DNA from: an uncultured Opitutia bacterium
GTDB taxonomy: Bacteria > Verrucomicrobiota > Verrucomicrobiia > Opitutales > Opitutaceae
Assembly: GCA_903896015.1 (NCBI GenBank)
Contig: CAITWF010000024.1
Location: 1 to 43,376, forward strand
Length of the DNA stretch: 43,376 nt
Direction: 5' to 3'
Below the pieces are notes generated by a model, which ran no database searches, was not told where the DNA came from, and was given only the letters and a program-made list of their open reading frames with translations. Positions 3,316 to 42,958 of the stretch are shown here, in pieces. Positions within the stretch are counted from its first letter, which is position 1, and each line of letters opens with the position of its first letter. A program made the position numbers and the translations under genes.

Positions 3316-3393
3316 CAGACAGCCAGCTGGCGCCGACAGCCGGCTTGCGCCCGGCACGGCGGGCGGTTTTGTGGGTCCAGCCCACGCTTCGCC

Positions 3394-4788: not shown

Positions 4789-4851
4789 CGGTAGACCAAC
4801 TTCGCGCTCGTCGCGCGCCCGCCCGGCCGCCTAGCGTCTGCCCTCTTTCGC

Positions 4852-6180
<1,329 letters not shown>

Positions 6181-6201
6181 GTTCGATTCCGCCTGCTTCG
6201 C

Positions 6202-7260: not shown

Positions 7261-7281
7261 GCCGGCGCGCCGTGCCGCCGC

Positions 7282-9462: not shown

Positions 9463-9516
9463 ACCTGATTTCTTTTCCAGCCCATCGCGTGTGTCGAGCG
9501 CGGTCGCGTGGATCGG

Positions 9517-10557: not shown

Positions 10558-10692
10558 GCCTGACTGTCAAGCACTCCGATCCGTTGCTATGGCAAGCTTT
10601 CATTTTTGGATATCGGCTAGATACCCCGCCCCGTTCCCAAGCATTGTCGCGCCCCCACGCGGCGGGATCGCCCCTTGAAACCGATCGAACCC

Positions 10693-28933: not shown

Positions 28934-30565
28934 GTGAAAACGCCCCGCATCGTTCTCCCCGCGATCGCCCTCGCGCTCGCGGTCACACTCTCCGCCGTGC
29001 AAGATCCCACCGAGGGTTCGCTCAACAAGCCCGAGCGCCTCGAATGGTTTCGGGATCAGGGCTTCGGGCTTTTCATCCACTGGAACGTCGACTCGCAGCT
29101 CGGCACCGTGATCTCCCACTCGCTCGTCGGCGCGTCCGACGATTACGTCGCGCGCTACTACGCGGAGCTTCCGCGGACGTTCAACCCGCGCAAATTTCAT
29201 CCCGAGGATTGGGCCGCACTCGCGAAGCTCGCGGGCATTCGCTATGTTGTGCTCACGGCGAAACATCACTCCGGGTTTTGCCTCTGGCCGTCGCAAACGA
29301 CCGACTTCACCATCGCCAACACGCCCTTCAAGCGCGATCTCACCGGCGAAATCGTGGACGCGTTCCGCGCCCAGGGCATTGCGCCCGGTTTCTATCACTC
29401 TCCCGACGATTTTTGGTGGCTCTGGAAAAACAGCATCCCAATCCAGCGCGGCGTCCCCGGCGTGCAGCCTGCGCAAAATCCCGGCCTGTTGAAGCACGAC
29501 CAACAGCAAATCCGCGAGTTGCTCACGAACTACGGCCCGATCGATCTGATTTTTTTCGACGGCGAGCCGCAGGGTCTGCGCGAGGTCGCGTGGCAAACCC
29601 AACCCAACATCGTCGTGACCCGCGGCGCCATTCCGACGCCCGAGCAAAATATCCCCGGCGTTCCGCTCGACGGCGCATGGGAGTCCTGCATTACGATGGG
29701 CCATGGTTGGGGATATCAGCCGACGCTTGAGACCTACAAGTCCGGCGGGCAGTGCATCTCGCTCCTGATTGAGACGCGCGCGAAAGGCGGCAATCTCCTC
29801 CTCAACGTGGGCCCGAAACCCGACGGCGAACTCCCGATCGAGCAGGAGGATCGCCTCCGCGAGATCGCGCTGTGGATGTTCGTCAATCAGGAGTGCATCT
29901 ACGCCGTGCGTCCGTGGGTCATCACCAACGAGCGCAACCTCTGGTTCACGAAGCGCAAAGACGCCGACACGCTCTACGCGATCGTCCAACGCGCGACGCC
30001 GTGGCCTGACGGCACGTGGCAGGATTTCGTTTTGAAATCCGTCCGGGCCACACCACAAACCGAAGTCTCCGTCCTCGGCCAGAACGACAAGGTGCTCGAA
30101 TACCAGCCCACCGTCGATCCGAAGACTACCTACGAGCAAAAGACCGACGGCCTGCACGTCCGCGCCATGCACACGCAGCGCCTCCACGACGATCGCAAAT
30201 GGCCCAACCCGATCGTGCTCAAGCTCACGCACGTGCAGCCCGCACTCACGCCGCCGCGCATCGACACCACCAAGGCCGGCTTCGACGCAAAAACGCGAGC
30301 CGTCGTCTGCGAGGGCAACCTCCTCGATCTCGGTGATGCCGCTTCGCTCACCGTCGGCTTCGAATACCGCGACATTACCGGCCTCGACCTCAACGACCGC
30401 CCCGATAAGTGGACTGCGGTGCCCGTCGGCGCGCGATCCGCAAAGGGAAAATTCACAGCCACCGCGGAAGGCTTAGCCCCGGGGCACACCTACGAATTCC
30501 GCGCCGTTGCGCAGCACCCGTTGCTGCCGCTCTACGGCCGCGACTTGCGCGTGCGCGTTCCGTAA
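28934..30565 (+). CDS. Alpha-L-fucosidase, GH29, exported
   Basis: The gene starts with GTG at 28934 and encodes 543 residues with a signal peptide. The GH29 barrel shows EWFRDQGFGLFIHWNVDSQLG, FHPEDWAALAKLAGIRYVVLTAKHHSGFCLWPS and NYGPIDLIFFDGEP, where Asp209 is the expected catalytic nucleophile. Further typical segments are WESCITMGHGWGYQP and KGGNLLLNVGPKPDGELP. The C-terminal 200 residues form beta-sandwich and fibronectin-like domains. GH29 enzymes release terminal alpha-L-fucose from glycans with retention of configuration. The usual KHHDGF motif reads KHHSGF here. The product would feed the sugar dehydrogenase encoded 19 bp downstream, which supports an L-fucose catabolic role. Confidence 0.93.
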   Translation: MKTPRIVLPAIALALAVTLSAVQDPTEGSLNKPERLEWFRDQGFGLFIHWNVDSQLGTVISHSLVGASDDYVARYYAELPRTFNPRKFHPEDWAALAKLAGIRYVVLTAKHHSGFCLWPSQTTDFTIANTPFKRDLTGEIVDAFRAQGIAPGFYHSPDDFWWLWKNSIPIQRGVPGVQPAQNPGLLKHDQQQIRELLTNYGPIDLIFFDGEPQGLREVAWQTQPNIVVTRGAIPTPEQNIPGVPLDGAWESCITMGHGWGYQPTLETYKSGGQCISLLIETRAKGGNLLLNVGPKPDGELPIEQEDRLREIALWMFVNQECIYAVRPWVITNERNLWFTKRKDADTLYAIVQRATPWPDGTWQDFVLKSVRATPQTEVSVLGQNDKVLEYQPTVDPKTTYEQKTDGLHVRAMHTQRLHDDRKWPNPIVLKLTHVQPALTPPRIDTTKAGFDAKTRAVVCEGNLLDLGDAASLTVGFEYRDITGLDLNDRPDKWTAVPVGARSAKGKFTATAEGLAPGHTYEFRAVAQHPLLPLYGRDLRVRVP

Positions 30566-30584
30566 GTTTTGCTCGCGGCCGCCC

Positions 30585-31538
30585 ATGCACTACCGCGCGC
30601 TCGGCCACACCGGCCTCGAAGTCTCCGTCCTCAGTTTCGGCGCGTCGTCGCTTGGCGGCGTGTTTCACGCCACCGACGACGACGAGTCGATCCGCACCGT
30701 TCGCACTGCGCTCGATCTTGGCGTCAACTTCCTCGACACGTCTCCTTACTATGGCGCGACACGGTCCGAGTCGGTCCTCGGCCGCGCGCTTCGCGGCGTG
30801 CCGCGTGAGAGCTACATCCTCGCCACCAAGGTCGGCCAATACAACAACGGCGAATTCGATTTCTCGGCCGCCCGCGTCACCCGATCGCTCGACGAAAGCT
30901 GCGCCCGCCTCGGTACCGATTACATCGATCTGCTGCAGTGCCACGACATCGAGTTCACCGATCTCAACCAGATCGTAGATGAAACGCTGCCCGCCCTCGT
31001 GAAACTACGTGAGGCCGGCCGCATCGGCCACATTGGCATTACGGGCCTGCCGCTGAAAATTTTTTCTGGCGTGCTCGATCGCACCGCGCCCGGCGTCGTC
31101 GAAACGATTCTTTCGTTCTGCCGCTACGAACTCAACGACACCGCGCTCGATTCGCTCGTGCCCTATCTCCGCGAAAAGAAGGTCGGCATCATCAACGCCT
31201 CACCCACCGGCATGGGCCTGCTCACGCCGCGCGGCGTCCCCTCGTGGCACCCCGCCCCGCCCGCGATGGTCGCCGGCGCGCGTCGCGCCGTGGAGTATTG
31301 CCAGTCAGTCGGCGCCGATATCGTGAAGCTCGCGCTGCAATTCTGCGTCGTGCATCCGGCGTTCGCCACGACACTCGTCGGCACCGCGAACCCCGAGACC
31401 ATACGCGAGAACGTCGCGCACATCGAGGCGCCGCTCGATTTTGCGCTCATGGCGAAGGTGCTCGAAATCCTGCGCCCGATCCACAATCACAACTTCACCC
31501 GCGGCCGCCCAGAGAACCGCGATCCGATCATCGCCTGA
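30585..31538 (+). CDS. Aldo/keto reductase, L-galactose / L-fucose dehydrogenase type
   Basis: The ATG at 30585 gives 317 residues. The AKR tetrad is visible: Asp51, Tyr56, Lys82 and His120 (DTSPYYG, ATKVG, LQCHDIEF). Long stretches match the plant L-galactose dehydrogenase pattern from memory: the LLQCHDIEFTDLNQIVDET region, IGITGLPLKIF, and ASPTGMGLLTPRGVPSWHPA. These enzymes oxidise L-galactose, and bacterial relatives L-fucose, to the lactone with NAD(P). L-fucose and L-galactose differ only at C6, so next to a fucosidase the substrate is probably L-fucose. It is 19 bp after the fucosidase and 4 bp before the next dehydrogenase, a clear operon position. It acts in the cytoplasm. Confidence 0.9.
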   Translation: MHYRALGHTGLEVSVLSFGASSLGGVFHATDDDESIRTVRTALDLGVNFLDTSPYYGATRSESVLGRALRGVPRESYILATKVGQYNNGEFDFSAARVTRSLDESCARLGTDYIDLLQCHDIEFTDLNQIVDETLPALVKLREAGRIGHIGITGLPLKIFSGVLDRTAPGVVETILSFCRYELNDTALDSLVPYLREKKVGIINASPTGMGLLTPRGVPSWHPAPPAMVAGARRAVEYCQSVGADIVKLALQFCVVHPAFATTLVGTANPETIRENVAHIEAPLDFALMAKVLEILRPIHNHNFTRGRPENRDPIIA

Positions 31539-31542
31539 CGCT

Positions 31543-32556
31543 ATGCTCCAAATTACGCTCGACGAACCGCGAATATTTTCCGCGCGCACCGATGCGCCCG
31601 ACCCAAAGCCCGCGCCCGGCGAGGCGCTCGTGCGCGTGCATCGCATCGGCGTCTGCGGCACCGACCTCCACGCGTTCGCCGGCCGGCAGCCGTTCTTCAA
31701 CTATCCGCGCATCCTCGGCCACGAGCTCGGAGTCGAAGTCATCGATCCCGGCAGCGATCCGCACGGTTTGAAGGCAGGTGATCGTTGCTCGCTCGAACCC
31801 TATCTCAACTGTGGCCACTGCATCGCGTGCCGGCGCGGAAAACCGAACTGCTGTACGTCGCTCAACGTGCTCGGCGTCCACAGCGACGGCGGCATGCGCC
31901 CGTTCTTGGCCGTGCCCGCGCGCAAACTCCACCGCTCCGCGAAACTTGACTACGAGCAACTCGCGCTCGTCGAAACGCTCGGCATAGGCGCCCACGCGGT
32001 CGAGCGCGCCGAAATCAAGCCGGACGATTTCGTCCTCGTCATCGGCGCCGGTCCAATCGGTTTAAGCGTAATCCAGTTTGCACTCGTTACCGGCGCGACG
32101 GTCGCGGTGATGGACGTGAGCGAGTCGCGCCTCACGTTTTGCCGCGATCAACTCGGCGTGAAGCACACCCTCACACCCACTGAGTCACCGGCCAAGTTGA
32201 AGGAAATCTTCGGTGGCGATCTACCGACGATCGTGCTTGATGCGACCGGCAACGCCGGCTCGATGGCCGGCACGTTCGACCTCATCGCACACGGCGGGCG
32301 GATCGTATTTGTCGGTCTGTTTCAAGGCGACGTCTCGTTCAACGATCCAAATTTCCACCGCCGCGAAATCACCGTCTGCGCCAGCCGCAACGCCGTGCCT
32401 CAGACATTCCGCGACATCATCGCGCTGATCGAAGCCGGCCGGATTGACACGCGCCCGTGGATCACTCACCGCTTCGCTCTGGTCGATACGCCGAAACTTT
32501 TTCCCGAAAAAATCGCCGGCAACCCCGCCGTCCTGAAAGCGATGATCGAAGTCTGA
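31543..32556 (+). CDS. Zinc-dependent alcohol dehydrogenase (MDR superfamily)
   Basis: The ATG at 31543 gives 337 residues. Catalytic-zinc ligands are in GVCGTDLH (Cys38) and GHELG (His60, Glu61). Structural-zinc cysteines are at 90, 93, 96 and 104 (NCGHCIACRRGKPNCC). The coenzyme fold shows VIGAGPIGLSVIQFA and then VMDVSESRL, where the Asp after the second strand suggests NAD rather than NADP. It is close to sorbitol, threonine and galactitol dehydrogenases. Placed 4 bp after the L-fucose-type dehydrogenase, it probably oxidises a hydroxyl of a fuconate-derived intermediate, such as 2-keto-3-deoxy-L-fuconate, but this is inferred. No lactonase or fuconate dehydratase is nearby. Confidence 0.92.
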   Translation: MLQITLDEPRIFSARTDAPDPKPAPGEALVRVHRIGVCGTDLHAFAGRQPFFNYPRILGHELGVEVIDPGSDPHGLKAGDRCSLEPYLNCGHCIACRRGKPNCCTSLNVLGVHSDGGMRPFLAVPARKLHRSAKLDYEQLALVETLGIGAHAVERAEIKPDDFVLVIGAGPIGLSVIQFALVTGATVAVMDVSESRLTFCRDQLGVKHTLTPTESPAKLKEIFGGDLPTIVLDATGNAGSMAGTFDLIAHGGRIVFVGLFQGDVSFNDPNFHRREITVCASRNAVPQTFRDIIALIEAGRIDTRPWITHRFALVDTPKLFPEKIAGNPAVLKAMIEV

Positions 32557-32573
32557 AAAATCCATTTTTCGCC

Positions 32574-33449
32574 ATGAGTTCTCCGCGCGTCGCGTTTCTC
32601 GGTCTCGGCATCATGGGCACCAACATGGCACGCCGGCTCGTCGACGCGGGTTGCGCGCTCACCGTCTACAATCGCAACCGAGCCAAGTCCGCAGCGATCG
32701 CGGGAGCACGCGTGGCCGCCACGCCGCGTGAGGCGGCGGCGGGAGCGGAATTCGTGATCTGCATGGTGGCGGACGATGTCGCCTCGCGCGCAATGTGGCT
32801 CGGCGCGGACGGCGCACTCGCCGGCACGGCGCATGGTGCGGTGCTGGCGGATTGCAGCACGCTCACCGTCGCGTGGGTGAACGAACTCGCCGCGGTGGCA
32901 TCGGCGCACGATTGCGATTTTCTCGATGCACCGGTGACCGGCAGCAAAGTTCAGTCGGCAGCGGGCGAGCTTAATTTTCTCGTCGGCGGCTCCGCCGAGG
33001 CCCTGGCAAAACTTCGCCCGGTGCTCGCGCCGATGAGCAAGAGTGTCATGCACCTCGGCCCAACCGGAAGTGGCGCGCTTATCAAGCTCATCAACAATTT
33101 TGTGTGCGGCGTGCAGGTCGCCGCGCTGGCCGAGGCGCTCGCCTGGATCGAGCGCAGCGGGATCGAACGTGCGCAGGCGCTCGCCGTCCTAACCGAGGGC
33201 GCACCGGGCAGCCCATTGGTGAAGGTGCTTTCGGCACGAATGACGGCCGCCGACTATACGCCGAATTTTCTGCTCAAGCTGATGGCGAAGGATCTCGACT
33301 ACGCGCTCATGGAGGGCCGCGCGGCCGGGCACGCTCCGGCCACGGCCGCGGCTGCGCTTGGGCTGTTCCGCGGCGCGATCGCGGCGGGCCACGGCGATCA
33401 AGATATGTCGGCGGTGATCGAACCGTTGCGAAAAAACTCTCCAGGCTGA
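32574..33449 (+). CDS. Beta-hydroxyacid dehydrogenase (3-hydroxyisobutyrate dehydrogenase family)
   Basis: The ATG at 32574 gives 291 residues. The Rossmann motif FLGLGIMGTNMARRL is at 8-22, followed by VYNRNRAKS, which suggests NADP preference. The substrate-binding motif DAPVTGSK (118-125) and the catalytic Lys171 in GALIKLINNF are present. The family includes tartronate semialdehyde reductase, 3-hydroxyisobutyrate dehydrogenase and glyoxylate or succinate semialdehyde reductases. It follows the zinc dehydrogenase after 17 bp. A role in reducing a lactaldehyde or semialdehyde product of fucose breakdown is plausible but unproven. Confidence 0.93.
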   Translation: MSSPRVAFLGLGIMGTNMARRLVDAGCALTVYNRNRAKSAAIAGARVAATPREAAAGAEFVICMVADDVASRAMWLGADGALAGTAHGAVLADCSTLTVAWVNELAAVASAHDCDFLDAPVTGSKVQSAAGELNFLVGGSAEALAKLRPVLAPMSKSVMHLGPTGSGALIKLINNFVCGVQVAALAEALAWIERSGIERAQALAVLTEGAPGSPLVKVLSARMTAADYTPNFLLKLMAKDLDYALMEGRAAGHAPATAAAALGLFRGAIAAGHGDQDMSAVIEPLRKNSPG

Positions 33450-33517
33450 ACTGCGGGCGGATTTCCGGAAAGCGGTGTTGCCATCGCCGCGGCGACCGCG
33501 CTGCATCGGCGTACCCC

Positions 33518-34870
33518 ATGCGCCTCACCCCGGACGAGCTGAGTTCCGCGCGCGCCGCCGCGTCGATCAATCCCGGGCCATCGCGCGCGCGGCATGTGGT
33601 CGTCGGATTCGTGTTGTTGCTCGCGATCATCACGTACGTCGATCGCGTGTGCATATCCCAGACTGCGGGCAATATCCGGCACGATCTGGGGTTAAATGAG
33701 AAGCAGATGGGCTGGGTGTTCGCGGCGTTTGGGCTGGCATATGCGCTGTTCGAAATTCCCGCCGGCTGGCTCGGCGATCGGTTCGGGCCACGCGGCGTGC
33801 TGATGAAAGTCGTCGTGATGTGGTCGATGTTCACCGCAGCGACAGGTGCCGCATGGAATTTTACCTCGCTGATCGTTTGCCGGATTTTATTTGGAGCCGG
33901 CGAGGCGGGCTGTTTTCCGAACGCGACCAAAATTTTTTCGATCTGGCTGCCAACGACCGAGCGCACGCGCGCGCAATCGTTGCTCTGGCTGGCGGCGCGG
34001 TGGGGCGGCGCCTTCACGCCGCTGATCGTGACGGCCGTGCTGGCGGTGCTGAACTGGCGATGGACCTTCGCATTTTTCGGCATCGTGGGTGTGGTTTGGG
34101 CGGTCGCGTTTTACCGCTGGTTTCGTGATCGGCCCCGCGAGCACCCGTCCGTCAACGCCGCCGAGCTCGCGCTCATGGACGGCGCGGAGCGCAACGCGCC
34201 GTGCCACGCGCCGATCCCCTGGGGAACGCTGCTGCGCAGCCGCACAGTCTGGCTGCTGTGGCTGCAATATTTCGGCCTGTCGTATGGCTGGTATTTTTAT
34301 GTTACGTGGCTGCCGACCTACTTGCGCGAGGCGCGTCACGTGCCGCTTGAGAAGAGCGCCGTCCTCGCGGGCCTTCCGCTTTTTTTCGGCGGCTTCGGCT
34401 GCCTCGCCGGCGGCTGGGCGGCTCGCCGCCTCGGAGAAAAATGGCGCGATGTCGGACGTGCCCGGCGCGCAGTGTGTTCTGCGGGCCTCTTCGGCGCCGC
34501 CGCGATGATTGTGGTCGCCAGCAAAATCGATCAACCGCTCTGGGCGATGGTCGCGCTCGGCCTCGCGAGTTTTGCCAACGACGTGACCCTCGCTCCTTGC
34601 TGGGTGTCATGCATGGATGTCGGCGGCCGGCTCGCGGGATCGCTTTCGGGGAGCATGAACATGATGGGAAACTTTGGCGGCGCGCTCGGGCCGCTCGTCG
34701 TCGGCTACATCCTCGATCGCGCCAAGCCGTCGCTGACCGCACCTCCGTCGATCGAAGGTTGGACGAATGCATTTCTCCTCGCCGCCGCCGTTTATGTCGT
34801 CGCCGGTCTCGCTTGGATTTTTCTCGATCCGGTTACGCCGCTTGAGCCGTCGACCAAACAAATGGCTTAA
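33518..34870 (+). CDS. MFS transporter, anion:cation symporter-like
   Basis: The ATG at 33518 gives 450 residues with about twelve membrane helices. Features of the ACS (hexuronate/sugar-acid) branch are YVDRVCISQTAGNIRHDLGLNEKQMGWVF in the first helix region, motif A as GWLGDRFGPRG, RILFGAGEAGCFPNATKIFSIWLPTTERTRAQ, and the second-half motif FGGFGCLAGGWAARRLG. These transporters usually import sugar acids such as hexuronates or aldonates with protons. In this context it could import L-fucose, fuconate or an oxidised sugar made in the periplasm by the quinoproteins. It closes the same-strand run that starts at the receptor, 68 bp after the previous gene. Confidence 0.92.
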   Translation: MRLTPDELSSARAAASINPGPSRARHVVVGFVLLLAIITYVDRVCISQTAGNIRHDLGLNEKQMGWVFAAFGLAYALFEIPAGWLGDRFGPRGVLMKVVVMWSMFTAATGAAWNFTSLIVCRILFGAGEAGCFPNATKIFSIWLPTTERTRAQSLLWLAARWGGAFTPLIVTAVLAVLNWRWTFAFFGIVGVVWAVAFYRWFRDRPREHPSVNAAELALMDGAERNAPCHAPIPWGTLLRSRTVWLLWLQYFGLSYGWYFYVTWLPTYLREARHVPLEKSAVLAGLPLFFGGFGCLAGGWAARRLGEKWRDVGRARRAVCSAGLFGAAAMIVVASKIDQPLWAMVALGLASFANDVTLAPCWVSCMDVGGRLAGSLSGSMNMMGNFGGALGPLVVGYILDRAKPSLTAPPSIEGWTNAFLLAAAVYVVAGLAWIFLDPVTPLEPSTKQMA

Positions 34871-34997: not shown

Positions 34998-35369
34998 ATG
35001 ATCAACGCTCCGGTCGCTCAGAAACGCGTGCAAGAGTCGCTCGTGGGATTTCCCCCGCGAGTAACTTCGTCCTATCTCGCCTTTGCCGAGAGCGGCGATC
35101 TGACGAATCTCGACGTCGTCGTCCTCGGTGTGCTCCAGTTTTATCTCGCGAAAAAACCTGCGGTGCCCCTCGAAGAAATGGCCGGCACCACCCGCCTCGT
35201 CGAAGATCTTGGCTGTGACTCGCTGACCATGATGGACACCGTCTTCATGGTCGAAACACTCTTCGATATCAAACTCGACGACACCGAACTCACGCAGCTG
35301 GGCACGCTCGACGAGTTGCGCGCACACCTGCGCCGCCACGTCCAAGGCCACACTGCATCGGCTGCGTAA
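34998..35369 (+). CDS. Acyl carrier protein with N-terminal extension
   Basis: The ATG at 34998 gives 123 residues; a GTG at 34971 is an alternative. The C-terminal 80 residues are a normal acyl carrier fold with the phosphopantetheine site LGCDSLTMMD (Ser75) and the acidic helix VETLFDIKLDDTEL. The first 45 residues (INAPVAQKRVQESLVGFPP...) are extra compared with the usual 75-85-residue carrier proteins. It should be modified by a phosphopantetheinyl transferase and carry acyl intermediates in the cytoplasm. It lies 10 bp before the ketosynthase and opens the eight-gene cluster, so it is probably a dedicated carrier and not the housekeeping AcpP. Confidence 0.88.
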   Translation: MINAPVAQKRVQESLVGFPPRVTSSYLAFAESGDLTNLDVVVLGVLQFYLAKKPAVPLEEMAGTTRLVEDLGCDSLTMMDTVFMVETLFDIKLDDTELTQLGTLDELRAHLRRHVQGHTASAA

Positions 35370-35379
35370 GGCTCGCGCC

Positions 35380-36651
35380 ATGTCAGCGCCGCGCGTCGTC
35401 GTCTCGGGACTCGGCTTCGTCACCAGCATCGGCAACGATCAACGCACGGTCGCTACGAGCCTGCGCGAACTTCGCTCCGGGATTGAGCGGGTCGACTTTT
35501 TGCCCGGCACCGATCTGCCGGTAAAAGTGGTCGGCACGCTCAAGGGTTTCGATACGGCCGCCGCGCAATGGCCCGGCTGGACCTGGCCGGAAGGTTACAC
35601 CTTCCCACGCGATCTCCTGCGCGGCATGGCCCCGCACGGCCTCTATGCCCTGTGCGCGACCGAGCAACTGATCGCCGATGCGAAGCTGACCGCGAATGAA
35701 CTTACCGCGGACGACACTGGGATGTTCTGCGCCTCGGCCGGATCGCCGCGCATGCTGCGCCAATTCGTCAATCAGATCCACGATTCGTGCGGCGCGCGCA
35801 TCCCGCCGATGGGTGTCGTCAGCACGATCGCGGGCACGCTGAATTTCAACCTCGCCGCGCACTACGGCGTCCGCGGCGCCGTCGCCGGATTCGTCTCGGC
35901 CTGCGCCTCCGCTACGCAGGCGCTCGGCTACGCTTGCGACGAAATCAAACTCGGCCGTCAGCGCCGCGTGCTCGTCATCGGCGGCGAGGATGTAAATTTC
36001 GAATCGATCTTTCCGTTTCACGGGATGCGAGCGCTGTCACGCAACCCCGATCCCGCGCGCGCCTCGCGGCCCTTCGATCGCGCGCGCGACGGCTTTGTCG
36101 GCACGGGCGGCTCGGCGGCGTTGCTCCTCGAAGAGGCGGAGGCCGCCCAGGGGCGCGGCGCGCCGATTTACGCCGAACTCGTGGGCTGGGGCCAGTCCGC
36201 CGACGGTTACAACGTCGCCAACTCTGACCCCGACGGCCGCGGGCTTGCCGTCGCGATGCAGCGCGCCCTCGCCTCCGCGCACGTCGCCCCCGCAGAGATC
36301 GACTACATCAACGCCCACGCCACCTCGACGCCTGTCGGCGATGCCTCCGAGGCGCGCGCACTGCACACCGTATTCACGAGCGGCGGCGCTCACCCGGCCA
36401 TCAGCAGCACGAAGGCGCTCACCGGGCACGGACTGTCGTTCTCCGGCGCGATGGAAACCGCCTTCTGCGCGCTCGCGCTTCGTGACGGCTTCACACCCGG
36501 CGCCGCCAATCTCGACGATCCTGATCCGGTGTGCGAGGGACTTAACTTGCCGCGCGCCACGCTTCCCACCGGACCGCGCATGGTATTGAAAAATAGCAGC
36601 GGCTTCGGCGGCAGCAACGTCTGCCTCGTACTACGCCGCTGGGAAAATTAA
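35380..36651 (+). CDS. Beta-ketoacyl-ACP synthase, FabF-like
   Basis: This 423-residue condensing enzyme has the full catalytic triad of the FabB/FabF family: Cys175 (VSACASATQAL), His313 (NAHATSTPVGD) and His350 (STKALTGHGLSFSGAMET, with Lys345). The gatekeeper end KNSSGFGGSNVCLVLRR is also typical. It would add a two-carbon malonyl unit to an acyl-ACP. Differences from housekeeping FabF, such as a Trp-rich loop at 64-73 (WPGWTWPEGY) and the GLSFSG in place of the usual LLGAAG, point to a special substrate. With a dedicated carrier protein upstream and no ketoreductase, dehydratase or enoyl reductase in the cluster, the product may be a beta-keto acyl chain or a borrowed fatty acid intermediate. 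Confidence 0.93.
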   Translation: MSAPRVVVSGLGFVTSIGNDQRTVATSLRELRSGIERVDFLPGTDLPVKVVGTLKGFDTAAAQWPGWTWPEGYTFPRDLLRGMAPHGLYALCATEQLIADAKLTANELTADDTGMFCASAGSPRMLRQFVNQIHDSCGARIPPMGVVSTIAGTLNFNLAAHYGVRGAVAGFVSACASATQALGYACDEIKLGRQRRVLVIGGEDVNFESIFPFHGMRALSRNPDPARASRPFDRARDGFVGTGGSAALLLEEAEAAQGRGAPIYAELVGWGQSADGYNVANSDPDGRGLAVAMQRALASAHVAPAEIDYINAHATSTPVGDASEARALHTVFTSGGAHPAISSTKALTGHGLSFSGAMETAFCALALRDGFTPGAANLDDPDPVCEGLNLPRATLPTGPRMVLKNSSGFGGSNVCLVLRRWEN

Positions 36652-36688
36652 CTGGCACACCGCGCCACGAAGCAAAATCCTCTCCCGC

Positions 36689-37561
36689 GTGTCCGTCGTC
36701 TTCGCTTTTCGCACCGCCCTGAAATCGGCTACCACCGAACCCAAGCCGGGGCACTTCCTGCCCGGTCGGAACGGCCACGCCGTCCTCCTCGCGCACGGCC
36801 TCACCGGCACACCGACGGAAATGCGCTTCATCGCGTGGTTCCTGAACAACCAGGGCTACACCGTCTCGTGTCCGCGCCTCGCGAATCACGGCCAGTCGAT
36901 GGACGTGCTGAAGGTCACGCGCTGGGAGGAATTTTACGCCAGCGTGCGGCAGGCCTACGAAGAGTTGCGCCCGAATCATGAAAAGATTTTCGTCGGCGGA
37001 CTCTCGATGGGCGCGTTGCTCGCGCTGCTCCTCGCCGAGGAGTTTCCCAAAATCGCCGGCGTCAGTTGCCTTTCACCAACGCTTTTCTACGATGGCTGGA
37101 ACGTCCCGTGGTATCACTTCTTCCTGCCGCTCGGCTCACATACTCCTCTCCGAAATTTCACCTACTTCAAGGAGGAGCCGCCCTACGGCCTCAAGAACGA
37201 GCGCATCCGCGAAAAGGTCCACGAATTCTACCAACATGCGGACATCCACGACATGCATGACGTCGATCGCTTCGGTTATCCGTTTTTTCCCGTGCGCCTC
37301 CTCGCCGAACTCCAACGCCTCGTCACGCACATCGAAAAACGCCTGCCCAACATCGCCAGCCCCTGCCAGATCATCCAGGCGCGCCATGACGACATGAGCA
37401 GCGTGAAAAACGCCCAGCGCATCTACGACCGCGTCGCCTCGTCGCGAAAAGAGATCGTTTACCTAGAGAATTCTTACCATGTGATCACCGCCGATCAGGA
37501 GCGCGCGAAGGTCGCCCAAAGCATGCTGGATTTTTTCAACGCGGAGGTGCCGCATGCCTAG
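36689..37561 (+). CDS. Alpha/beta hydrolase, carboxylesterase or thioesterase-like
   Basis: The gene starts with GTG at 36689 and encodes 290 residues. It has the oxyanion segment LLAHGLTGTPTEMR, the nucleophile elbow GLSMGA (Ser106), an acid region ARHDDMSS (Asp234 or Asp235) and the catalytic His264 (NSYHVIT). The pattern is that of small carboxylesterases and monoacylglycerol lipases (Est30-like). There is no signal peptide, so it should act in the cytoplasm. Between a ketosynthase and a phosphatase gene, it most likely hydrolyses an acyl thioester from the carrier protein or an ester of the product. It overlaps the next gene by 8 bp, suggesting translational coupling. Confidence 0.9.
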   Translation: MSVVFAFRTALKSATTEPKPGHFLPGRNGHAVLLAHGLTGTPTEMRFIAWFLNNQGYTVSCPRLANHGQSMDVLKVTRWEEFYASVRQAYEELRPNHEKIFVGGLSMGALLALLLAEEFPKIAGVSCLSPTLFYDGWNVPWYHFFLPLGSHTPLRNFTYFKEEPPYGLKNERIREKVHEFYQHADIHDMHDVDRFGYPFFPVRLLAELQRLVTHIEKRLPNIASPCQIIQARHDDMSSVKNAQRIYDRVASSRKEIVYLENSYHVITADQERAKVAQSMLDFFNAEVPHA

Positions 37562-38261
37562 TCCCACCGCCGCCCGCGTCGGCCCCGTTCGCGCCCACTC
37601 GCGCGACGGCTTCCGCATTTTCATCGACTTCGACAACACGATCACGATCGGCGACGTGCTCGACGGCGTGATTGAAAAATTTGCGGTCGGCGACCGCTGG
37701 CGCGAGCTCGAGATCGAATGGGAAGCCGGAAAAATCGGCGCGCGTGACTGCCTCGACGGCCAGCTCCGCAGTCTCCGCGCCGAATGGCCTGAACTCACGC
37801 GCCATCTCGACGCCGTGCAACTCGATCCCGGTTTCTCCGCGCTGCTCACTCTCGCTCGCCGCGAACAGATCGATCTCACAATCCTCAGCGACAATTTCGA
37901 TCTGCTGCTCGGGTATATTCTGCAGCGGCGTGGTCTCGGCGACGTGGCCTTCTTCGGAAACCACCTTGAGCGCGCGGCCGATCGCTTTCTCCCTTCTTTT
38001 CCGTTCAGCAACCCCGACTGCCCCGGCTGCGCGCATTGCAAGAAGACGCACTTTCTCCCGCCCAACGACGATCCGCGACACGTCGTCTACATCGGCGACG
38101 GTCGCTCCGATCTCTGTCCGGCGCGGCACGCGGACATCGTGTTCGCCAAGGCCGGCCTGTTGAAACAACTTCGCGCCGAGCAGGTCGCGTGTCATGCGTT
38201 CGACGGCCTCGCCGACGTGGCGCGCGTGCTCGAGAAAATTTTTCATGAAAGCCAACTCTGA
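37554..38261 (+). CDS. HAD-superfamily phosphatase, MtnX/SerB-like
   Basis: This 235-residue protein has the HAD motif I IFIDFDNTIT (Asp25, Asp27), motif II TILSDNFD, a Lys region, and motif IV VVYIGDGRSDLCPARHADIVFAK. It is close to MtnX-like HAD-IB phosphatases, which remove phosphate from small phosphorylated metabolites. A Cys cluster NPDCPGCAHCKKTHF, at about residues 152-166, is present in a place where MtnX relatives also carry CxxCK. The substrate is probably a phosphorylated intermediate of the cluster product or a phosphorylated amine. It overlaps the upstream hydrolase gene by 8 bp and the downstream aminotransferase gene by 17 bp. Confidence 0.9.
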   Translation: MPSPTAARVGPVRAHSRDGFRIFIDFDNTITIGDVLDGVIEKFAVGDRWRELEIEWEAGKIGARDCLDGQLRSLRAEWPELTRHLDAVQLDPGFSALLTLARREQIDLTILSDNFDLLLGYILQRRGLGDVAFFGNHLERAADRFLPSFPFSNPDCPGCAHCKKTHFLPPNDDPRHVVYIGDGRSDLCPARHADIVFAKAGLLKQLRAEQVACHAFDGLADVARVLEKIFHESQL

Positions 38262-39657
38262 TTCCACCTTCGCCGTCGGCACGCTCGACGAAAAAGCCCT
38301 GCTCGATCTCGAGAGCCGCTACTGCTCGTGGGGCGACACCGTCCACTACGCGAAGGAACTCACGTTCTTCCGCGAAGCCAAGGGAAGCTTCCTCTACGAT
38401 CGCGCCGGCACCGAATACCTCGACCTCCAGATGTGGTATTCCGCGGCGAATTTCGGCTACCGCAACGAGCGGCTGAACAACGCGCTCAAGAAGCAGATCG
38501 ACACGCTGCCGCAGCTCGCCTGCCAATATCTGCATGAAGAGCGCGTGTTGCTCGCCACCAAGCTCGCGCAGCGAATTGAGAAAACGTTCGGCGTAAAAGG
38601 CCGCGTGCACTTCAACGTCGGCGGTGCCTCCGCGATCGAGGATGCGATGAAAGTCGTACGCAACCACACGGGGAAAAACCACACGTTTGCCTTCATGGGC
38701 GGTTACCACGGCCGCACGCTCGGTGCGACGTCGATTACCTCAAGTTACCGCTACCGCGAACGCTTCGGCCACTTCGGCGACCGCGCCAACTTCATCCCGT
38801 ATCCCTACTGCTTCCGCTGCCACCTGAGCCTGAAGCCCGAGACGTGCGGAATGGCGTGCCTGCGGCAGTTCGAAAAAATGTTCGAGTCGGAATACTATTC
38901 CGTCGTCAACCCGAAGAACAACAAGAGCGAGTATGGCGCGTTTTTCATCGAGCCCGTGCAGGCGACCGGCGGCTACATCGTCCCGCCGAAGGACTACTTC
39001 AAAGAGCTCAAGCAAACGCTCAACAAATACGGCATTCTCCTCGTCGTGGACGAAATCCAGATGGGCTTTTTCCGCACCGGCAAATTCATGTCGATCGAGC
39101 ACTTCGATGTCGTCCCCGACGTCGTCGTCTTCGGCAAAGCAATGACCAACGGTCTCAACGCGATCTCCGGCATCTGGGCGCGCGAGGAATTGATCTCTCC
39201 GCAGGTCTTCCCGCCGGGTTCGACCCACTCCACCTTCTCCGCCAACCCACTCGGCACCGCCGCCGGTCTCGCGGTGATGGACCTAATCGAGGATGAGAAT
39301 TTCGAGGAAAGCGTGCCGGCGAAGGGAGCTTACTTCCTGAAAAAGCTCGGCGAGCTCAAAAAGAAATACCCGTGCATCGGCCACGTCGAGGGCCTCGGTC
39401 TCGCCCTGCGGATGGAGATGTGCCAGGACGATGGCTTCACCCCCAACCGAGAGCTCACTGACGCCATCATGAACATCGGCCTTTCGGGCACGCTTACGGC
39501 GGGCGGCAAGAAGCGTGGCCTGATCCTCGACATCGGCGGCTACTACAAGAACGTCTTCACTCTCGCGCCGTCACTCTACATCACCGAGGAAGAAATTGAT
39601 CTTGGCGTCGCGCTATTTGAGGAGGCACTACTGCGCGCGCGGGCTGCGCGCAAGTAA
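38245..39657 (+). CDS. Class III PLP-dependent aminotransferase
   Basis: The ATG at 38245 gives 470 residues. Key features are GGYHGRTLGATSIT (152-165), the PLP-ring contact VVDEIQMGFFRTGK (Asp269), and the Schiff-base lysine in VVFGKAMTNG (Lys298), then GSTHSTFSANPLGTAAGL. The family transfers amino groups between omega-amines or 2-amino acids and keto acids. An insertion after HFGDRANFIPYPYC carries four cysteines (C189, C192, C201, C205, pattern CxxCx8CxxxC) that could bind a metal; a related insertion is known in some archaeal-type aminotransferases. In this cluster it probably aminates an aldehyde or ketone made from an acyl-ACP. It overlaps the phosphatase gene by 17 bp. Confidence 0.95.
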   Translation: MKANSDSTFAVGTLDEKALLDLESRYCSWGDTVHYAKELTFFREAKGSFLYDRAGTEYLDLQMWYSAANFGYRNERLNNALKKQIDTLPQLACQYLHEERVLLATKLAQRIEKTFGVKGRVHFNVGGASAIEDAMKVVRNHTGKNHTFAFMGGYHGRTLGATSITSSYRYRERFGHFGDRANFIPYPYCFRCHLSLKPETCGMACLRQFEKMFESEYYSVVNPKNNKSEYGAFFIEPVQATGGYIVPPKDYFKELKQTLNKYGILLVVDEIQMGFFRTGKFMSIEHFDVVPDVVVFGKAMTNGLNAISGIWAREELISPQVFPPGSTHSTFSANPLGTAAGLAVMDLIEDENFEESVPAKGAYFLKKLGELKKKYPCIGHVEGLGLALRMEMCQDDGFTPNRELTDAIMNIGLSGTLTAGGKKRGLILDIGGYYKNVFTLAPSLYITEEEIDLGVALFEEALLRARAARK

Positions 39658-39681
39658 CGCGCCCTCCGCCCCACCGCGATC

Positions 39682-40089
39682 ATGGCGTCGTCTGCGACCA
39701 AGCTGCCCGGCAAAGTTCTGGTCGCACTCGCGCTCGCGGTCGTGCTGGACACGGTCACGCATATCGCGTGGAAACTCGCGGTCGCCCATCTGCCGGAGGG
39801 AGAAACGCTCGCGGCGGTCGCCCGCACCGCGCTGGCGAGCCCGCTCTTCCTCGTCGCCATGGTCGCGTTTCTCGCGCAATTCTACAACTGGATGCGCGTC
39901 CTGGAGCACGCCGATCTAAGTTTTGCCCAACCGATCACCGCGCTCGGCTACATCGCCGTGCTCGCGATTTCGGCGCGTGCGCTCCATGAGCCCGTTTCAG
40001 CCACGCGGATCGCCGGCGTGGCGTTGATTCTCGCCGGCGTCTATTTCATCAGCCGCACGCCGCACCGCACGACTGCTCTCGCGCCATGA
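39682..40089 (+). CDS. Small EamA/SMR-type membrane transporter subunit
   Basis: This 135-residue protein has four predicted membrane helices, the size of SMR or ArnE/ArnF-like subunits: residues about 10-30, 50-72, 78-100 and 106-125. The third and fourth helices contain ADLSFAQPITALGYIAVLAISARALHEPVS and RIAGVALILAGVYFIS, typical of the second EamA half. It has an extra Arg-rich C-tail. Such subunits pair to move lipid-linked amino sugars, polyamines or drugs. It starts 24 bp after the aminotransferase gene and overlaps the next membrane gene by 4 bp (ATGA), which favours a heterodimer with that protein. Confidence 0.85.
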   Translation: MASSATKLPGKVLVALALAVVLDTVTHIAWKLAVAHLPEGETLAAVARTALASPLFLVAMVAFLAQFYNWMRVLEHADLSFAQPITALGYIAVLAISARALHEPVSATRIAGVALILAGVYFISRTPHRTTALAP

Positions 40090-40466
40090 CGCCCACGCTC
40101 ACCGGACTCATGCTGGTCGCCGCCGCCGCCGCCGTGGAAAGCTTCGCGCAAATCTTTCTGAAGATCGGCGCCGCGGGCGGGCCTGGCATTCTGATGCCGC
40201 CGTTCCGCCATCACGCCATGCGACTGCCGGCCGGCACGTCGGGCCTACTCTGGCTCTCGCTCGGCATCCTCGCCTACCTCGCCGAAATATTCCTCTATAC
40301 GCTGGCCCTGTATTTCCTCGATGTGAGCGTCGCCTTTCCGATGGGCAGCCTGTGCTTCATCGGAATTGCCCTGCTCTCAAAATGGGTGCTCGGCGAAACC
40401 GTCGGCCGCACCCGCTGGCTCGGCATCGGCTGCATCCTGGGTGGGACCATTCTGGTGGCGCTGTGA
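40086..40466 (+). CDS. Small EamA/SMR-type membrane transporter subunit, partner of 39682-40089
   Basis: This 126-residue protein also has four predicted membrane helices: TGLMLVAAAAAVESFAQIFLKIG, LLWLSLGILAYLAEIFLYTLAL, VSVAFPMGSLCFIGIALLSK and WLGIGCILGGTILVAL. The segment FLDVSVAFPMGSLCFIGIALLSKWVLGETV is the ArnE/ArnF/EmrE-like core. It shares a four-base ATGA overlap with its partner, and its stop overlaps the GTG start of the next gene (GTGA). The pair resembles ArnE/ArnF, the subunits that flip undecaprenyl-phosphate-aminoarabinose. The cargo here is unknown; a flipped amino-lipid would fit the neighbouring aminotransferase and acyl enzymes. Confidence 0.85.
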   Translation: MTPTLTGLMLVAAAAAVESFAQIFLKIGAAGGPGILMPPFRHHAMRLPAGTSGLLWLSLGILAYLAEIFLYTLALYFLDVSVAFPMGSLCFIGIALLSKWVLGETVGRTRWLGIGCILGGTILVAL

Positions 40467-41608
40467 ACCCCAACGAGGCTGTGCACGTCGAATTCGTCCG
40501 GCGCGTCGAGGACATCGACGACGCACTGTGGCACGCCAGTTTCCCGGCCCCGCTCGAAGGCCGCTTCTGGTATCACACACTCGAAACCAGCGACCTCGAA
40601 GATCAGTTCACTTTCCACTACGCCCTCATCTCGCTTGGCGGACGCGCCGTCGGTATCGCACCGTGTTTTCTCCACGACGTGCCCATCACGCTGGTCGCCC
40701 CCGCACCCGTCGCTCTTGTCCTGCGTGGACTCTCGAAATTTTTTCCGCGCGTCGGCTACCAGCGGACATTTTTCATCGGTTCGCCCTGCTCCGACGAGGG
40801 CACGGTCGGTCTCGTGCCGGGCATAAGGCCTGCCGAAATCATCGCTCCGCTGCGCGCGGCGATTCTCGCGAAGGCTCGCGAGCTCGGCGCGCCAATGATC
40901 GTTTTCAAAGACTTCCCCGAGCCAGACCACCCGTTGCTCGCGGCCGGCGGATTCGTTTCGACCGTCAGCTATCCGGGAACCGTCGTCGCGCTGCCGCCAC
41001 CGGACAAAGACGCCTATTTTCGGGCGCGCTCGCAAAATCAGCGACATAACTTCCGGAAGAAACTGCGCCGTTCGCATGAAGCCATCGCGTTGACGACAGC
41101 CGTGGTGGCGCATCCCTCCGACGCGGAACTCAAGGAAATCTTCGCGCTGTTTCTGCAAACCTACGAGCGCGGCAAAACCGAATTCGAGCGACTCGGCCTG
41201 AGCTTCTTCGCCCAAATCCGCGAGCACGAGCCCGCGCGCTTCATCCTGCAGCGCGATGCCGCTACAGGTGAACTGGTGACGTTCATGCTCGTCTTTCACC
41301 TAGGCGATCGCGTGGTCAACAAGTTCATCGGGCTCGACTACCGGCGAGGTGGAAACACGTTTCTCTACTTCCGGCTCTTCGACGCGGCGCTTGATTACGC
41401 CTACGCCGTTGGGGCCAAGGAACTCCAGAGCGGCCAGACCGGCTACCGCGCCAAAGTTGATCTCGGCCACCGACCCATGCCGCTGTTCAATCTATTCCGA
41501 CACCAGAACCCGCTCGTGCACGCAATTTTTAGTGCGATCGGCCGGCGCGTGACGTGGCGATCACTCGATCCGGAATTGGCCGCGATTACGTCGATGCCCT
41601 CATCTTAG
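40463..41608 (+). CDS. FemAB/GNAT-like acyltransferase (peptidogalycan biosynthesis-type)
   Basis: The GTG at 40463 gives 381 residues and a 4-bp overlap with the preceding stop. The protein has the two-GNAT-fold arrangement of FemAB/DUF482-like proteins: an N-terminal half with RFWYHTLETSDLEDQFTFHYALIS, a middle RSQNQRHNFRKKLRRSHEA segment that is typical of this family, then a second GNAT fold with FMLVFHLGDRVVNKFIGLDYRRGGNTFLYFRLFDAALDYAYAVGAKELQSGQTGYRAKVDLGH. Family members transfer an acyl or aminoacyl group to an amine. It would acylate or aminoacylate the aminated product of the cluster, or use an acyl carrier protein as the donor. It ends the tight run of genes. Confidence 0.85.
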   Translation: MNPNEAVHVEFVRRVEDIDDALWHASFPAPLEGRFWYHTLETSDLEDQFTFHYALISLGGRAVGIAPCFLHDVPITLVAPAPVALVLRGLSKFFPRVGYQRTFFIGSPCSDEGTVGLVPGIRPAEIIAPLRAAILAKARELGAPMIVFKDFPEPDHPLLAAGGFVSTVSYPGTVVALPPPDKDAYFRARSQNQRHNFRKKLRRSHEAIALTTAVVAHPSDAELKEIFALFLQTYERGKTEFERLGLSFFAQIREHEPARFILQRDAATGELVTFMLVFHLGDRVVNKFIGLDYRRGGNTFLYFRLFDAALDYAYAVGAKELQSGQTGYRAKVDLGHRPMPLFNLFRHQNPLVHAIFSAIGRRVTWRSLDPELAAITSMPSS

Positions 41609-41704
41609 CGATCGGTTGCCAACGCGACTTCATCCTCGCCCGCGGCGGGTAACTTCGGCTTGGTCGGCAGCACTCCGATTCACCCCGCCACTCATTCTCG
41701 CTCG

Positions 41705-42958
41705 ATGAAAACCCGTCGTGATTTCGTCAAACTCGCCGCCGCCGCCGGTCTCTTCGCCACGGCGCGCGCCCGCGCCGCCTCGACCCCCGCCCCATCGCCA
41801 TCCACCGGCACCGACGATCGCACAGCATGGTGCGCACTCGCGGCCCGGCTCGGGACGCCGGTCCTGAACGCACTCGCCGAGCGACGCCTCAAGGCGACAA
41901 TGCCCGTTGAGGCCGCGCCCGGCGTCAAAGACCGTCCCCAATTCACGCACCTTGAGGCACTCGGTCGCCTCCTTTGTGGACTCGCACCTTGGCTCGAACT
42001 CGGAGGCGACGATTCCGCCGAGGGCCGGCAGCGCGCGCGGTTCGCCGACCTCGCACGCCGCGCGATCGAGTCAGCCACCGATCCGGCGTCACCGGACTTT
42101 CTCAATTTCTCAAAGGGATCGCAGCCGCTCGTTGACGCGGCATTTCTCGCGCAGGCGATGCTCCGAGCGCCGAGCGAATTGTGGAAAAAACTTGCGCCAC
42201 CCGCCCAGGCCAGCGTCATCGCCGCGCTCTCGTCTTCGCGTCACATCCAGCCGGGCGAAAATAACTGGAAGCTTTTCGCGGCGACAGTGGAGGTTTTTCT
42301 TTTCCGCGCCGGTGCAACGCGCGATGACACGCGACTCTTTGAAGGCATCCGCAAGCACCGCGAGTGGTATGTTGGCGACGGCATGTATGGCGATGGCCCC
42401 GAGTTTCACTGGGATTACTACAATTCCTTCGTGATTCAGCCCATGCTCGTCGAGGCGCTCGATGTCGTCGGTGAAGAAGCGCCCGAGTGGCGATCACTCC
42501 GCGAAAAGTCGCGCGAGCGCCTCACCCGCTGGGCGGCGATTCAGGAACGGGTCATCGCGCCCGATGGCACCTACCCGATCGTCGGCCGCTCGATCGCGTA
42601 TCGCTGCGGCGCGTTTCAGGGACTGGCGCTCGCGGCGCTACGTCACGCGCTGCCCGAATCGGTGACGCCCGCGCAAGCGCGTGGTGCACTCACCGCCGTG
42701 ATCCGACGCACGCTCGAAGCGCCAGACACTTTCGACGATCGTGGTTGGTTGCGGATTGGTGTGGGCGGACATCAGCCCGCGCTTGGCGAAAGCTACATTT
42801 CAACCGGGAGCCTCTATTTGTGCAGCGCCGCGTTTCTCCCGCTCGGCCTGCCGGCCAACGATCCATTTTGGAGCACGCCCGCGGCACCGACGACCTGGTC
42901 AAAAGTCTGGTCCGGCACAAACTTCCCCGCCGATCACGCGCTTAGGAGTCCGCGCTAA
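41705..42958 (+). CDS. DUF2264 family protein, Tat-exported
   Basis: The ATG at 41705 gives 417 residues. The N-terminus MKTRRDFVKLAAAAGLFATARARAA is a twin-arginine signal (RRDFVK). The mature protein shows DUF2264 features: TRLFEGIRKHREWYVGDGMYGDGPEFHWDYYNSFVIQPMLVEALD, then RERLTRWAAIQERVIAPDGTYPIVGRSIAYR, and GGHQPALGESYISTGSLYLCSAAFLPLGLP near the end. The fold is an alpha/alpha barrel, like glycoside hydrolase or lyase toroids. Some members have been linked to glycan degradation, but the activity is not certain. It follows the acyltransferase gene after 96 bp and is probably not part of that cluster. The gene ends where the repeat-rich non-coding region begins. Confidence 0.88.
   Translation: MKTRRDFVKLAAAAGLFATARARAASTPAPSPSTGTDDRTAWCALAARLGTPVLNALAERRLKATMPVEAAPGVKDRPQFTHLEALGRLLCGLAPWLELGGDDSAEGRQRARFADLARRAIESATDPASPDFLNFSKGSQPLVDAAFLAQAMLRAPSELWKKLAPPAQASVIAALSSSRHIQPGENNWKLFAATVEVFLFRAGATRDDTRLFEGIRKHREWYVGDGMYGDGPEFHWDYYNSFVIQPMLVEALDVVGEEAPEWRSLREKSRERLTRWAAIQERVIAPDGTYPIVGRSIAYRCGAFQGLALAALRHALPESVTPAQARGALTAVIRRTLEAPDTFDDRGWLRIGVGGHQPALGESYISTGSLYLCSAAFLPLGLPANDPFWSTPAAPTTWSKVWSGTNFPADHALRSPR

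Follow-up and report, generated by a model that had tools for sequence, protein, structure and literature searches.

A co-inherited gene set around an altered class III PLP enzyme in Opitutae and distant bacteria, possibly a pathway for an envelope amino-lipid

The eight-gene locus

We analyzed a 43,376-nucleotide stretch of DNA from an uncultured Opitutia bacterium (hereafter the window), which is contig C24 of a 4.96-Mb genome that is 97.9% complete. An earlier note on this DNA had described a compact run of eight genes on one strand and proposed that they form a single pathway to an amino-lipid or a small amine-containing product. Analysis of open reading frames (ORFs) and Pfam domains recovered all eight genes on the plus strand at positions 34998 to 41608 (Table 1). 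They encode an acyl carrier protein (ACP), a FabF-like ketosynthase (KS), an alpha/beta-hydrolase, a HAD phosphatase, a class III pyridoxal phosphate (PLP) enzyme that we call AT3, two small EamA/SMR membrane proteins (EamA-1 and EamA-2), and a FemAB-like transferase. From the hydrolase onward, the ORF coordinates agree with the overlaps of 8, 17, 4, and 4 bp that had been claimed; the remaining junctions are gaps of 10 bp (ACP-KS), 37 bp (KS-hydrolase), and 24 bp (AT3-EamA-1). The catalytic residues are in place in the KS (Cys-His-His), the ACP (Ser75), the hydrolase, the HAD phosphatase, and AT3 (the PLP residues).

Table 1. Genes and residue codons of the eight-gene locus in the window
Feature	Position	Strand	Match or motif
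Acyl carrier protein (ACP; accessory)	34998..35369	+	PF00550 PP-binding 31.3 bits, over cut-off
ACP Ser75 codon	35220-35222	+	within GCDSL motif
FabF-like ketosynthase (KS; accessory)	35380..36651	+	PF00109/PF02801 94.7/107.5 bits, over cut-off
Alpha/beta-hydrolase (core)	36689..37561	+	PF12146 Hydrolase_4 81.6 bits, over cut-off; Ser nucleophile in GLSMG
MtnX-like HAD-IB phosphatase (core)	37554..38261	+	PF12710 49.5 bits, over cut-off; PF06888 39.6 bits; DFDNT and GDGxSD
AT3, class III PLP enzyme (core)	38245..39657	+	PF00202 Aminotran_3 267.8 bits vs cut-off 30.5
AT3 Thr241 codon	38965-38967	+	
AT3 Lys298 codon	39136-39138	+	
AT3 Thr439 codon	39559-39561	+	
EamA/SMR subunit 1, ArnF-like	39682..40089	+	PF00892 30.8 bits, over cut-off; small multi-helix membrane protein by hydropathy
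EamA/SMR subunit 2, ArnE-like	40086..40466	+	PF00892 30.2 bits, over cut-off; small multi-helix membrane protein by hydropathy
FemAB-like tandem-GNAT transferase (core)	40463..41608	+	PF04339 FemAB_like 26.6 bits, just below cut-off 27

Co-inheritance and conservation of the core genes

We searched 100 genomes of the window's family with E-value limits of 1e-60 for AT3, 1e-20 for FemAB, 1e-20 for the hydrolase, and 1e-15 for HAD. Strong matches (E <1e-220 for AT3, <1e-120 for FemAB, <1e-110 for the hydrolase, and <1e-75 for HAD) fell in the same seven genomes from five genera (that of the window, G000, and G025, G017, G021, G038, G058, and G093); the remaining 93 genomes had no such match. Intermediate matches outside the seven were those of AT3 in G009, the hydrolase in G088, and HAD in G016 and G052, with none for FemAB. 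The seven genomes are related by descent and hence not independent, and the HAD match in G017 reads beyond a stop codon (one TGA). The earlier note had named scattered homologues in related genomes as an outcome that would tell against its idea; we found the core families to be co-inherited. In G058 and G093, the EamA-EamA-FemAB genes lie on a contig separate from AT3, and because these genes are unlinked but jointly kept, the set consists of two modules.

An AT3-anchored contig scan gave 195 confirmed relatives. The best 80 of these 195 (60 to 92% identical), two family loci, the window, and five annotated plasmid loci made up an 88-locus survey with hidden Markov models (HMMs), in which a match counted anywhere in the fetched stretch (at most about 10 kb on each side, or 15 kb for plasmid loci). 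Loci L013, L014, L015, and L017 duplicate L021, L022, L024, and L044 and were excluded, and three further plasmid loci (L113 to L115), read from their annotation only, stand outside the 88. The HMM survey was used in place of a first survey (BLAST and Louvain gene families) that missed genes in GC-rich contigs. Many of the surveyed contigs are short; AT3 was accompanied by HAD in 78/88 loci, the hydrolase in 61/88, EamA in 47/88, and FemAB in 42/88. A recount within 8 kb covered the 43 AT3 loci whose flanks reach 7 kb or more in both directions, a set that does not include the window. Here, HAD was present in 41/43, the hydrolase in 36/43, EamA in 32/43, and FemAB in 27/43 loci, and 25 of the 43 carried all four together. 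These 25 complete loci show up to 13 gene orders, a few of them distinguished by one EamA match alone. That the genes were reordered again and again yet stayed together argues for a common function.

The surveys show conserved synteny of the kind that the earlier note had proposed to look for, with the AT3 core kept together across phyla. The unit is not the eight genes, however, but six core genes: AT3, HAD, and the hydrolase (module A) and FemAB with two EamA genes (module B). The core is common to Opitutae, Omnitrophota, Acidobacteriota, Melainabacteria, and Pseudomonadota, where it is plasmid-borne in rhizobia. The occurrence in Aquificota and Myxococcota is from a single metagenome-assembled genome (MAG) each, and several source bins are MAGs that may be misassigned (for example, L057 and L058).

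KS was found in 15/88 and ACP in 12/88 AT3 loci. Because both are absent from most loci, extension of an acyl chain, which had been proposed as the first step, is not a general one. The window KS carries the SACAS, NAHATST, and KALTGHG motifs and scores 337 bits against the FabF model TIGR03150, below the equivalog cut-off of 493.75. It is 66 to 79% identical to the KS of four Opitutae relatives, 61% and 56% identical to paralogues on contigs C7 and C43 of its own genome, and only 32 to 35% identical to the KS from the remaining AT3 loci in the comparison. A KS tree grouped it with the resident C7 and C43 paralogues, apart from the KS of other AT3 lineages. For AT3 itself, 87 sequences were compared (one of the 88 was dropped for too little profile coverage), and a tree made by a quick method covers 72 of them, the 15 omitted including several from short contigs. 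In this tree, the window AT3 falls in a clade with four loci whose titles name Opitutae (L021 to L024), and this clade is sister to three Omnitrophota loci (L025 to L027), where the gene order is KS-ACP-hydrolase-HAD-AT3, together with an unplaced bacterium (L028). Since the KS type differs at the same position, the KS was replaced by a resident type with its position kept, and ACP-KS is a replaceable accessory of the AT3 core. A second Opitutae clade (L016, L018, and L044) is placed in another part of the AT3 tree, and the starred branches of this tree require two changes in the case of Verrucomicrobiota; transfer of AT3 between phyla is likely.

The two paralogous KS genes have distinct surroundings. 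On contig C7 of G000 (L019, about 3354 to 9517), a UbiE-like methyltransferase, an ACP, and an acyltransferase lie together with a KS, the closest paralogue that the window KS has in its own genome, and with another KS-like protein; the locus resembles a cluster of the aryl-polyene or resorcinol type. On contig C43 (L020, about 8106 to 13898) are an ACP-FabA, a KS, a short-chain dehydrogenase/reductase, an MGDG-synthase-like protein, and group 1 glycosyltransferases; two Acidobacteriota AT3 loci, L086 and L088, likewise carry a member of an MGDG-synthase-like family.

Other families recur near AT3. An arginase-family protein (34/88) and a DegT aminotransferase (26/88) occur in many versions of the locus elsewhere and are absent at the window locus. 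Response regulators were found in 19/88 and histidine kinases in 18/88 loci, with one kinase representative carrying a 2CSK_N sensor domain, and AMP ligase (9/88), PagL (8/88), and PEMT-like (4/88) genes were also counted. AMP-ligase, PEMT-like, and MGDG-synthase-like genes occur in further AT3 loci.

A plasmid search returned 34 records matching AT3 at E ≤ 1e-100, and we read eight of these. A desaturase is present in 4/8 and a cyclopropane-fatty-acid synthase in 3/8 annotated plasmid loci. The Rhizobium acidisoli and Phyllobacterium plasmids carry a regulator-kinase, HAD, AT3, arginase-family, EamA, fatty acid desaturase, hydrolase, GNAT (FemAB), EamA, and cyclopropane-fatty-acid synthase series; the R. 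leguminosarum 23B plasmid is like that of R. acidisoli, but no kinase is listed next to the regulator. The Sinorhizobium sp. B11 plasmid has the desaturase and lacks the cyclopropane synthase, and two Agrobacterium plasmids have neither. Xanthomonas sacchari carries HAD, AT3, KS, ACP, GNAT, arginase-family, DegT, EamA, EamA, and hydrolase genes on mixed strands. On a Bartonella sp. plasmid, AT3 and GNAT genes are accompanied by an arginase-family gene recognized by HMM, and MtnX-like HAD and EamA were not found within 15 kb. MacB/HlyD/TolC-type efflux genes adjoin the operon at L099, L102, L103, and L114 (Caulobacter, Agrobacterium, and Xanthomonas).

The genes that flank the locus in the window (about 7 kb upstream and 1.8 kb downstream) had no homologue in the other loci of the BLAST survey, those of four close Opitutae relatives included. 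Since the flanks lack such homologues, ACP and FemAB are suggested as the ends of the conserved block. The flank genes at 28934 to 34870 and 41660 to 42958 lie on the same strand and include a major facilitator superfamily transporter (PF07690) and a DUF2264 protein by Pfam; other flank ORFs look by eye like a fucosidase, an aldo/keto reductase, a zinc-alcohol dehydrogenase, and a 3-hydroxyisobutyrate dehydrogenase. The flank genes probably serve sugar use and are unrelated to the eight-gene set. A tRNA-??? call by ARAGORN on the minus strand (41167 to 41262) lies inside the FemAB gene and was treated as a false positive. A promoter scan gave 0 sites, and terminator-like sites were no more numerous than in shuffles (7 versus 6.9).

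Active sites and predicted folds

The AT3 family is highly constant, with 69% mean column identity in 24 members, and the PLP residues K298, D269, and T330 are present in 87/87 members. Thr241 and Thr439 are likewise present in 87/87. The Thr439 site is Arg (in an NVIR-type motif) in 4/4 displayed solved relatives that cover it, and the Thr241 site is Glu or Asp in 5/5 displayed solved relatives. We take these Arg and Glu sites to be the switch by which GabT and ornithine aminotransferase bind the carboxylate of the amino donor. Of the five class III enzymes used as controls, three kept the Arg (L127, L128, and L012) and two the Glu; control L130, read as the glutamate-1-semialdehyde aminomutase type, has Ser at the Arg site, and a control read as BioA-like has a poorly aligned Tyr there. 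All 87 AT3 members thus lack the Arg and Glu/Asp switch pair expected of class III aminotransferases that depend on an alpha-amino acid. Threonine at both switch sites makes plain Glu-dependent transamination doubtful, and a mutase, a lyase, or an unusual amino donor would fit AT3 better. The amination step that had been proposed keeps its class III PLP enzyme with its PLP residues, but amination itself is uncertain. The nearest solved folds to the AT3 model (predicted local distance difference test [pLDDT] 79.5, middling) are Ala/Ser and aminocaprolactam racemases. Since the displayed racemases keep the Arg, its loss is not the mark of a racemase.

The AlphaFold2 model of FemAB is confident (pLDDT 91.9) and has a tandem-GNAT fold. 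It matches aminoacyl-tRNA-dependent peptide synthases (Z 22), FemX/FemA (Z 20 to 21), and MprF/L-PGS (Z 18 to 20), with 260 to 299 residues aligned to the FemX/MprF group at a root mean square deviation of 2.9 to 5.1, and also N-myristoyltransferase (Z 16 to 17) and acetyltransferases; identity to FemAB is 6 to 16% among the matches listed. These meaningful solved relatives were found by fold search and not by sequence profile, where the matches among solved proteins (Nop56, eIF2-alpha, and FliG fragments) were taken as chance. Among 29 FemAB members (E ≤ 0.01), 27 match PF04339, 26 match PF13480, two touch ATE_C, and one matches PF02388 (E 0.0048). Lys331 may be the counterpart of the catalytic Lys of FemX. 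Because the fold is common to aminoacyl and acyl transferases, it does not decide the donor, and a role for FemAB in capping an amine with an aminoacyl or acyl group fits the model. What had been called an acylation step therefore stands as to the tandem-GNAT transferase fold, but the acyl donor is uncertain, since aminoacyl-tRNA-dependent transfer fits equally.

EamA-1 best matches ArnF (37.8 bits versus a cut-off of 99) and EamA-2 best matches ArnE (40 versus 92), so that neither subunit reaches the NCBIfam equivalog cut-off. Of the 32 full-flank loci with an EamA match, 31 have two, which upholds the pairing of small membrane transporters seen in the window, and a heteromeric flippase would be the natural reading by analogy. 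In the hydrolase, Asp234 and His264 are invariant in 16/16 aligned members, and no signal peptide was seen by eye in the window protein. Three of the 16 (L089, L099, and L101) have Cys instead of Ser as the nucleophile (GLCVGG or GICVGG). HAD scores 84.8 bits against TIGR01489 (MtnX-like HAD-IB), over the cut-off of 81.55. The arginase-family protein keeps its metal-ligand motifs in 15/15 aligned members. At E ≤ 1e-5, a match to this family was present in one of the 20 genomes searched (G006) and in none of the seven positive Opitutae genomes, which makes it a lineage-specific addition.

A proposed pathway, its rivals, and known systems

We propose, with about even confidence, a two-module envelope-lipid pathway that makes, caps, and flips an amino-lipid. 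Module A, fed in the window by ACP and KS, would make a free-amine lipid or its precursor in the cytoplasm: the KS would assemble a beta-ketoacyl chain on the ACP, AT3 would set or move an amino group by PLP chemistry in which an alpha-amino acid is not the ordinary donor, HAD would take off a phosphate, and the hydrolase would cleave a (thio)ester. In module B, FemAB would attach an acyl or aminoacyl cap to the amine, and the EamA pair would flip the capped product to the other side of the inner membrane, as ArnE/ArnF flips aminoarabinose-undecaprenol. In favor of this reading are the four families found in the same seven genomes, even where the two modules are on different contigs, the 25 complete full-flank loci, the lipid enzymes that recur in the operons, the paired EamA matches with their ArnF and ArnE likeness, and the histidine kinases and response regulators. 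The gene content, co-inheritance, synteny, intact catalytic residues, and tandem-GNAT fold of the FemAB model are observed; we infer the lipid nature of the product, the making of the amine by AT3, the order of the steps, and the flippase role of the EamA pair. The idea of one pathway, probably lipid-linked and with paired EamA proteins, is thus retained from the earlier note, but its extension, amination, and acylation steps are not retained as stated. A more specific version is tentative: the set may define a new class of amino-lipid made without an alpha-oxoamine synthase, in which the substrate of a switch-less class III PLP enzyme is a lipid or a phospho-head, a FemX/MprF-fold protein caps the amine, and a two-subunit EamA flippase delivers the product, a route common to the five groups named above with the acyl-chain supply swapped.

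Several points weigh against the amino-lipid pathway. Thr241 and Thr439 speak against plain Glu- or Ala-dependent transamination, and the absence of KS and ACP from most AT3 loci means that an ACP-bound beta-keto step is not general. FemAB and EamA are both absent within 8 kb in 10/43 full-flank loci, so module A may be independent of module B, or module B may lie elsewhere. The lipid and regulator neighbors belong to common families, and their counts come without a background rate. The product could also be a soluble amine-containing small molecule, such as a polyamine conjugate or a secondary metabolite, with the EamA pair as its exporter. Small metabolites are among the substrates that EamA proteins can export, some loci lie next to ABC/HlyD/TolC efflux genes, and the arginase-family enzyme gives a hint of chemistry on guanidines or polyamines, but acyl-chain enzymes are repeatedly paired with the AT3 core and the EamA subunits resemble, weakly, the lipid flippase ArnE/ArnF. 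We consider a soluble product quite improbable. That the genes are chance neighbors from separate pathways has in its favor that each family is common and the gene order variable; the presence of four families in the same 7/100 genomes and of all five core families in 25/43 full-flank loci makes this a very remote prospect.

Two other alternatives keep the set together and assign its chemistry differently. AT3 may be a single-substrate PLP enzyme (an aminomutase, racemase, lyase, or decarboxylase), with the amine preexisting and AT3 and HAD remodeling a phosphorylated amino-alcohol or amino-sugar head. The paired threonines, the retention of Arg in most controls, the Ser of L130, the racemase folds nearest to AT3, and the constancy of HAD as its neighbor all accord with this. 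However, the substitutions are no proof of lost transamination, amine- or S-adenosylmethionine-dependent class III transaminases exist, the Glu site varies in the controls too, the solved racemases keep the Arg, and the AT3 model is only middling; we regard this alternative as possible but doubtful. The FemAB fold raises a split MprF-like system, in which FemAB would take an amino acid from aminoacyl-tRNA and attach it to a lipid at an amine or hydroxyl, the EamA pair would flip the resulting aminoacyl-lipid, and the hydrolase would cut the amino acid off again; where the arginase-family protein is present, an arginyl head would become an ornithyl head. Its top fold matches, the two members touching ATE_C, the hydrolase gene next to FemAB in several loci, the intact metal-ligand motifs of the arginase-family protein, and a transferase-hydrolase precedent in LpiA/AcvB, as far as the available part of the source goes (PMC13197417), are in line with such a system. 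It is nonetheless unlikely: AT3 and HAD, the pair most often kept, are left without a function in it; the fold is also that of N-myristoyltransferase and acetyltransferases; the positive Opitutae genomes lack the arginase-family match; and the window hydrolase shows no signal peptide by eye, whereas AcvB is periplasmic in the part of the literature available.

Compared with known systems, the amino-lipid pathway has its closest transport parallel in the arn operon, where ArnE/ArnF is the flippase of aminoarabinose-undecaprenol. The window likewise has two small EamA genes side by side, each best matching a different Arn subunit, and some relatives of the AT3 locus add a DegT aminotransferase and two-component regulators. 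Unlike the arn operon, the window has EamA scores far below the cut-offs, no glycosyltransferase among the eight proteins by Pfam, and a different PLP enzyme. AT3 shares its fold and PLP residues with class III racemases and aminotransferases (Ala/Ser racemase 9wqz, GabT, and ArgD) but has Thr439 for Arg and Thr241 for Glu/Asp. A KS or ACP with a class III PLP enzyme also recalls the beta-amino-acyl route of cispentacin (AmcB/AmcF) and, we presume, the AMT domain of iturin and mycosubtilin. The window ACP and KS fall below the cut-offs of the cispentacin models (23 versus 80 and 164.1 versus 325), and unlike in these routes, AT3 is stand-alone, with no nonribosomal peptide synthetase among the eight. 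A sphingolipid or capnine set had been excluded in the earlier note, rightly for these genes: the alpha-oxoamine synthase family PF00155 matches none of the eight proteins (E ≤ 0.001; the rest of the genome was not searched). PADLOC models of anti-phage systems matched 0 families for 8/8 proteins (E ≤ 0.001). In Caulobacter OR37, a full-length PF04339 protein (L116/L118) lies about 4 kb from a PF00155 protein; it may be CerS, but we draw no conclusion from it. The matches listed from the open-access literature held no description of the eight-gene set or its parts.

A co-inherited, multi-phylum set without a description would mean that a class of envelope molecule is missing from lipid catalogues. 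The set is present in culturable rhizobia, agrobacteria, and Oleiagrimonas, the altered AT3 active site predicts unusual PLP chemistry, and the two-component systems and efflux pumps that adjoin it in some lineages suggest a role in envelope stress. The nearest described systems that we found, judged from the available parts of their sources, are LpiA/AcvB and the Caulobacter ceramide pathway. LpiA/AcvB is a lysyl-phosphatidylglycerol transferase and hydrolase system with a periplasmic AcvB (PMC13197417 and PMC13135905). Like it and MprF, the window has a tandem-GNAT transferase fold, a membrane transporter, and a hydrolase; unlike them, it has these functions in separate genes, a hydrolase without a visible signal peptide, and AT3 and HAD in addition. 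The ceramide pathway (spt, cerR, acpR, aasR, and cerS; PMC11324152 and PMC9386255) shares with it a dedicated ACP, a lipid N-acyltransferase, and an envelope lipid, but the window's eight proteins are without a PF00155 serine palmitoyltransferase, AT3 is of class III, and a phosphatase and paired EamA proteins are present. The component families are already known; their combination and the altered PLP enzyme appear to be new.

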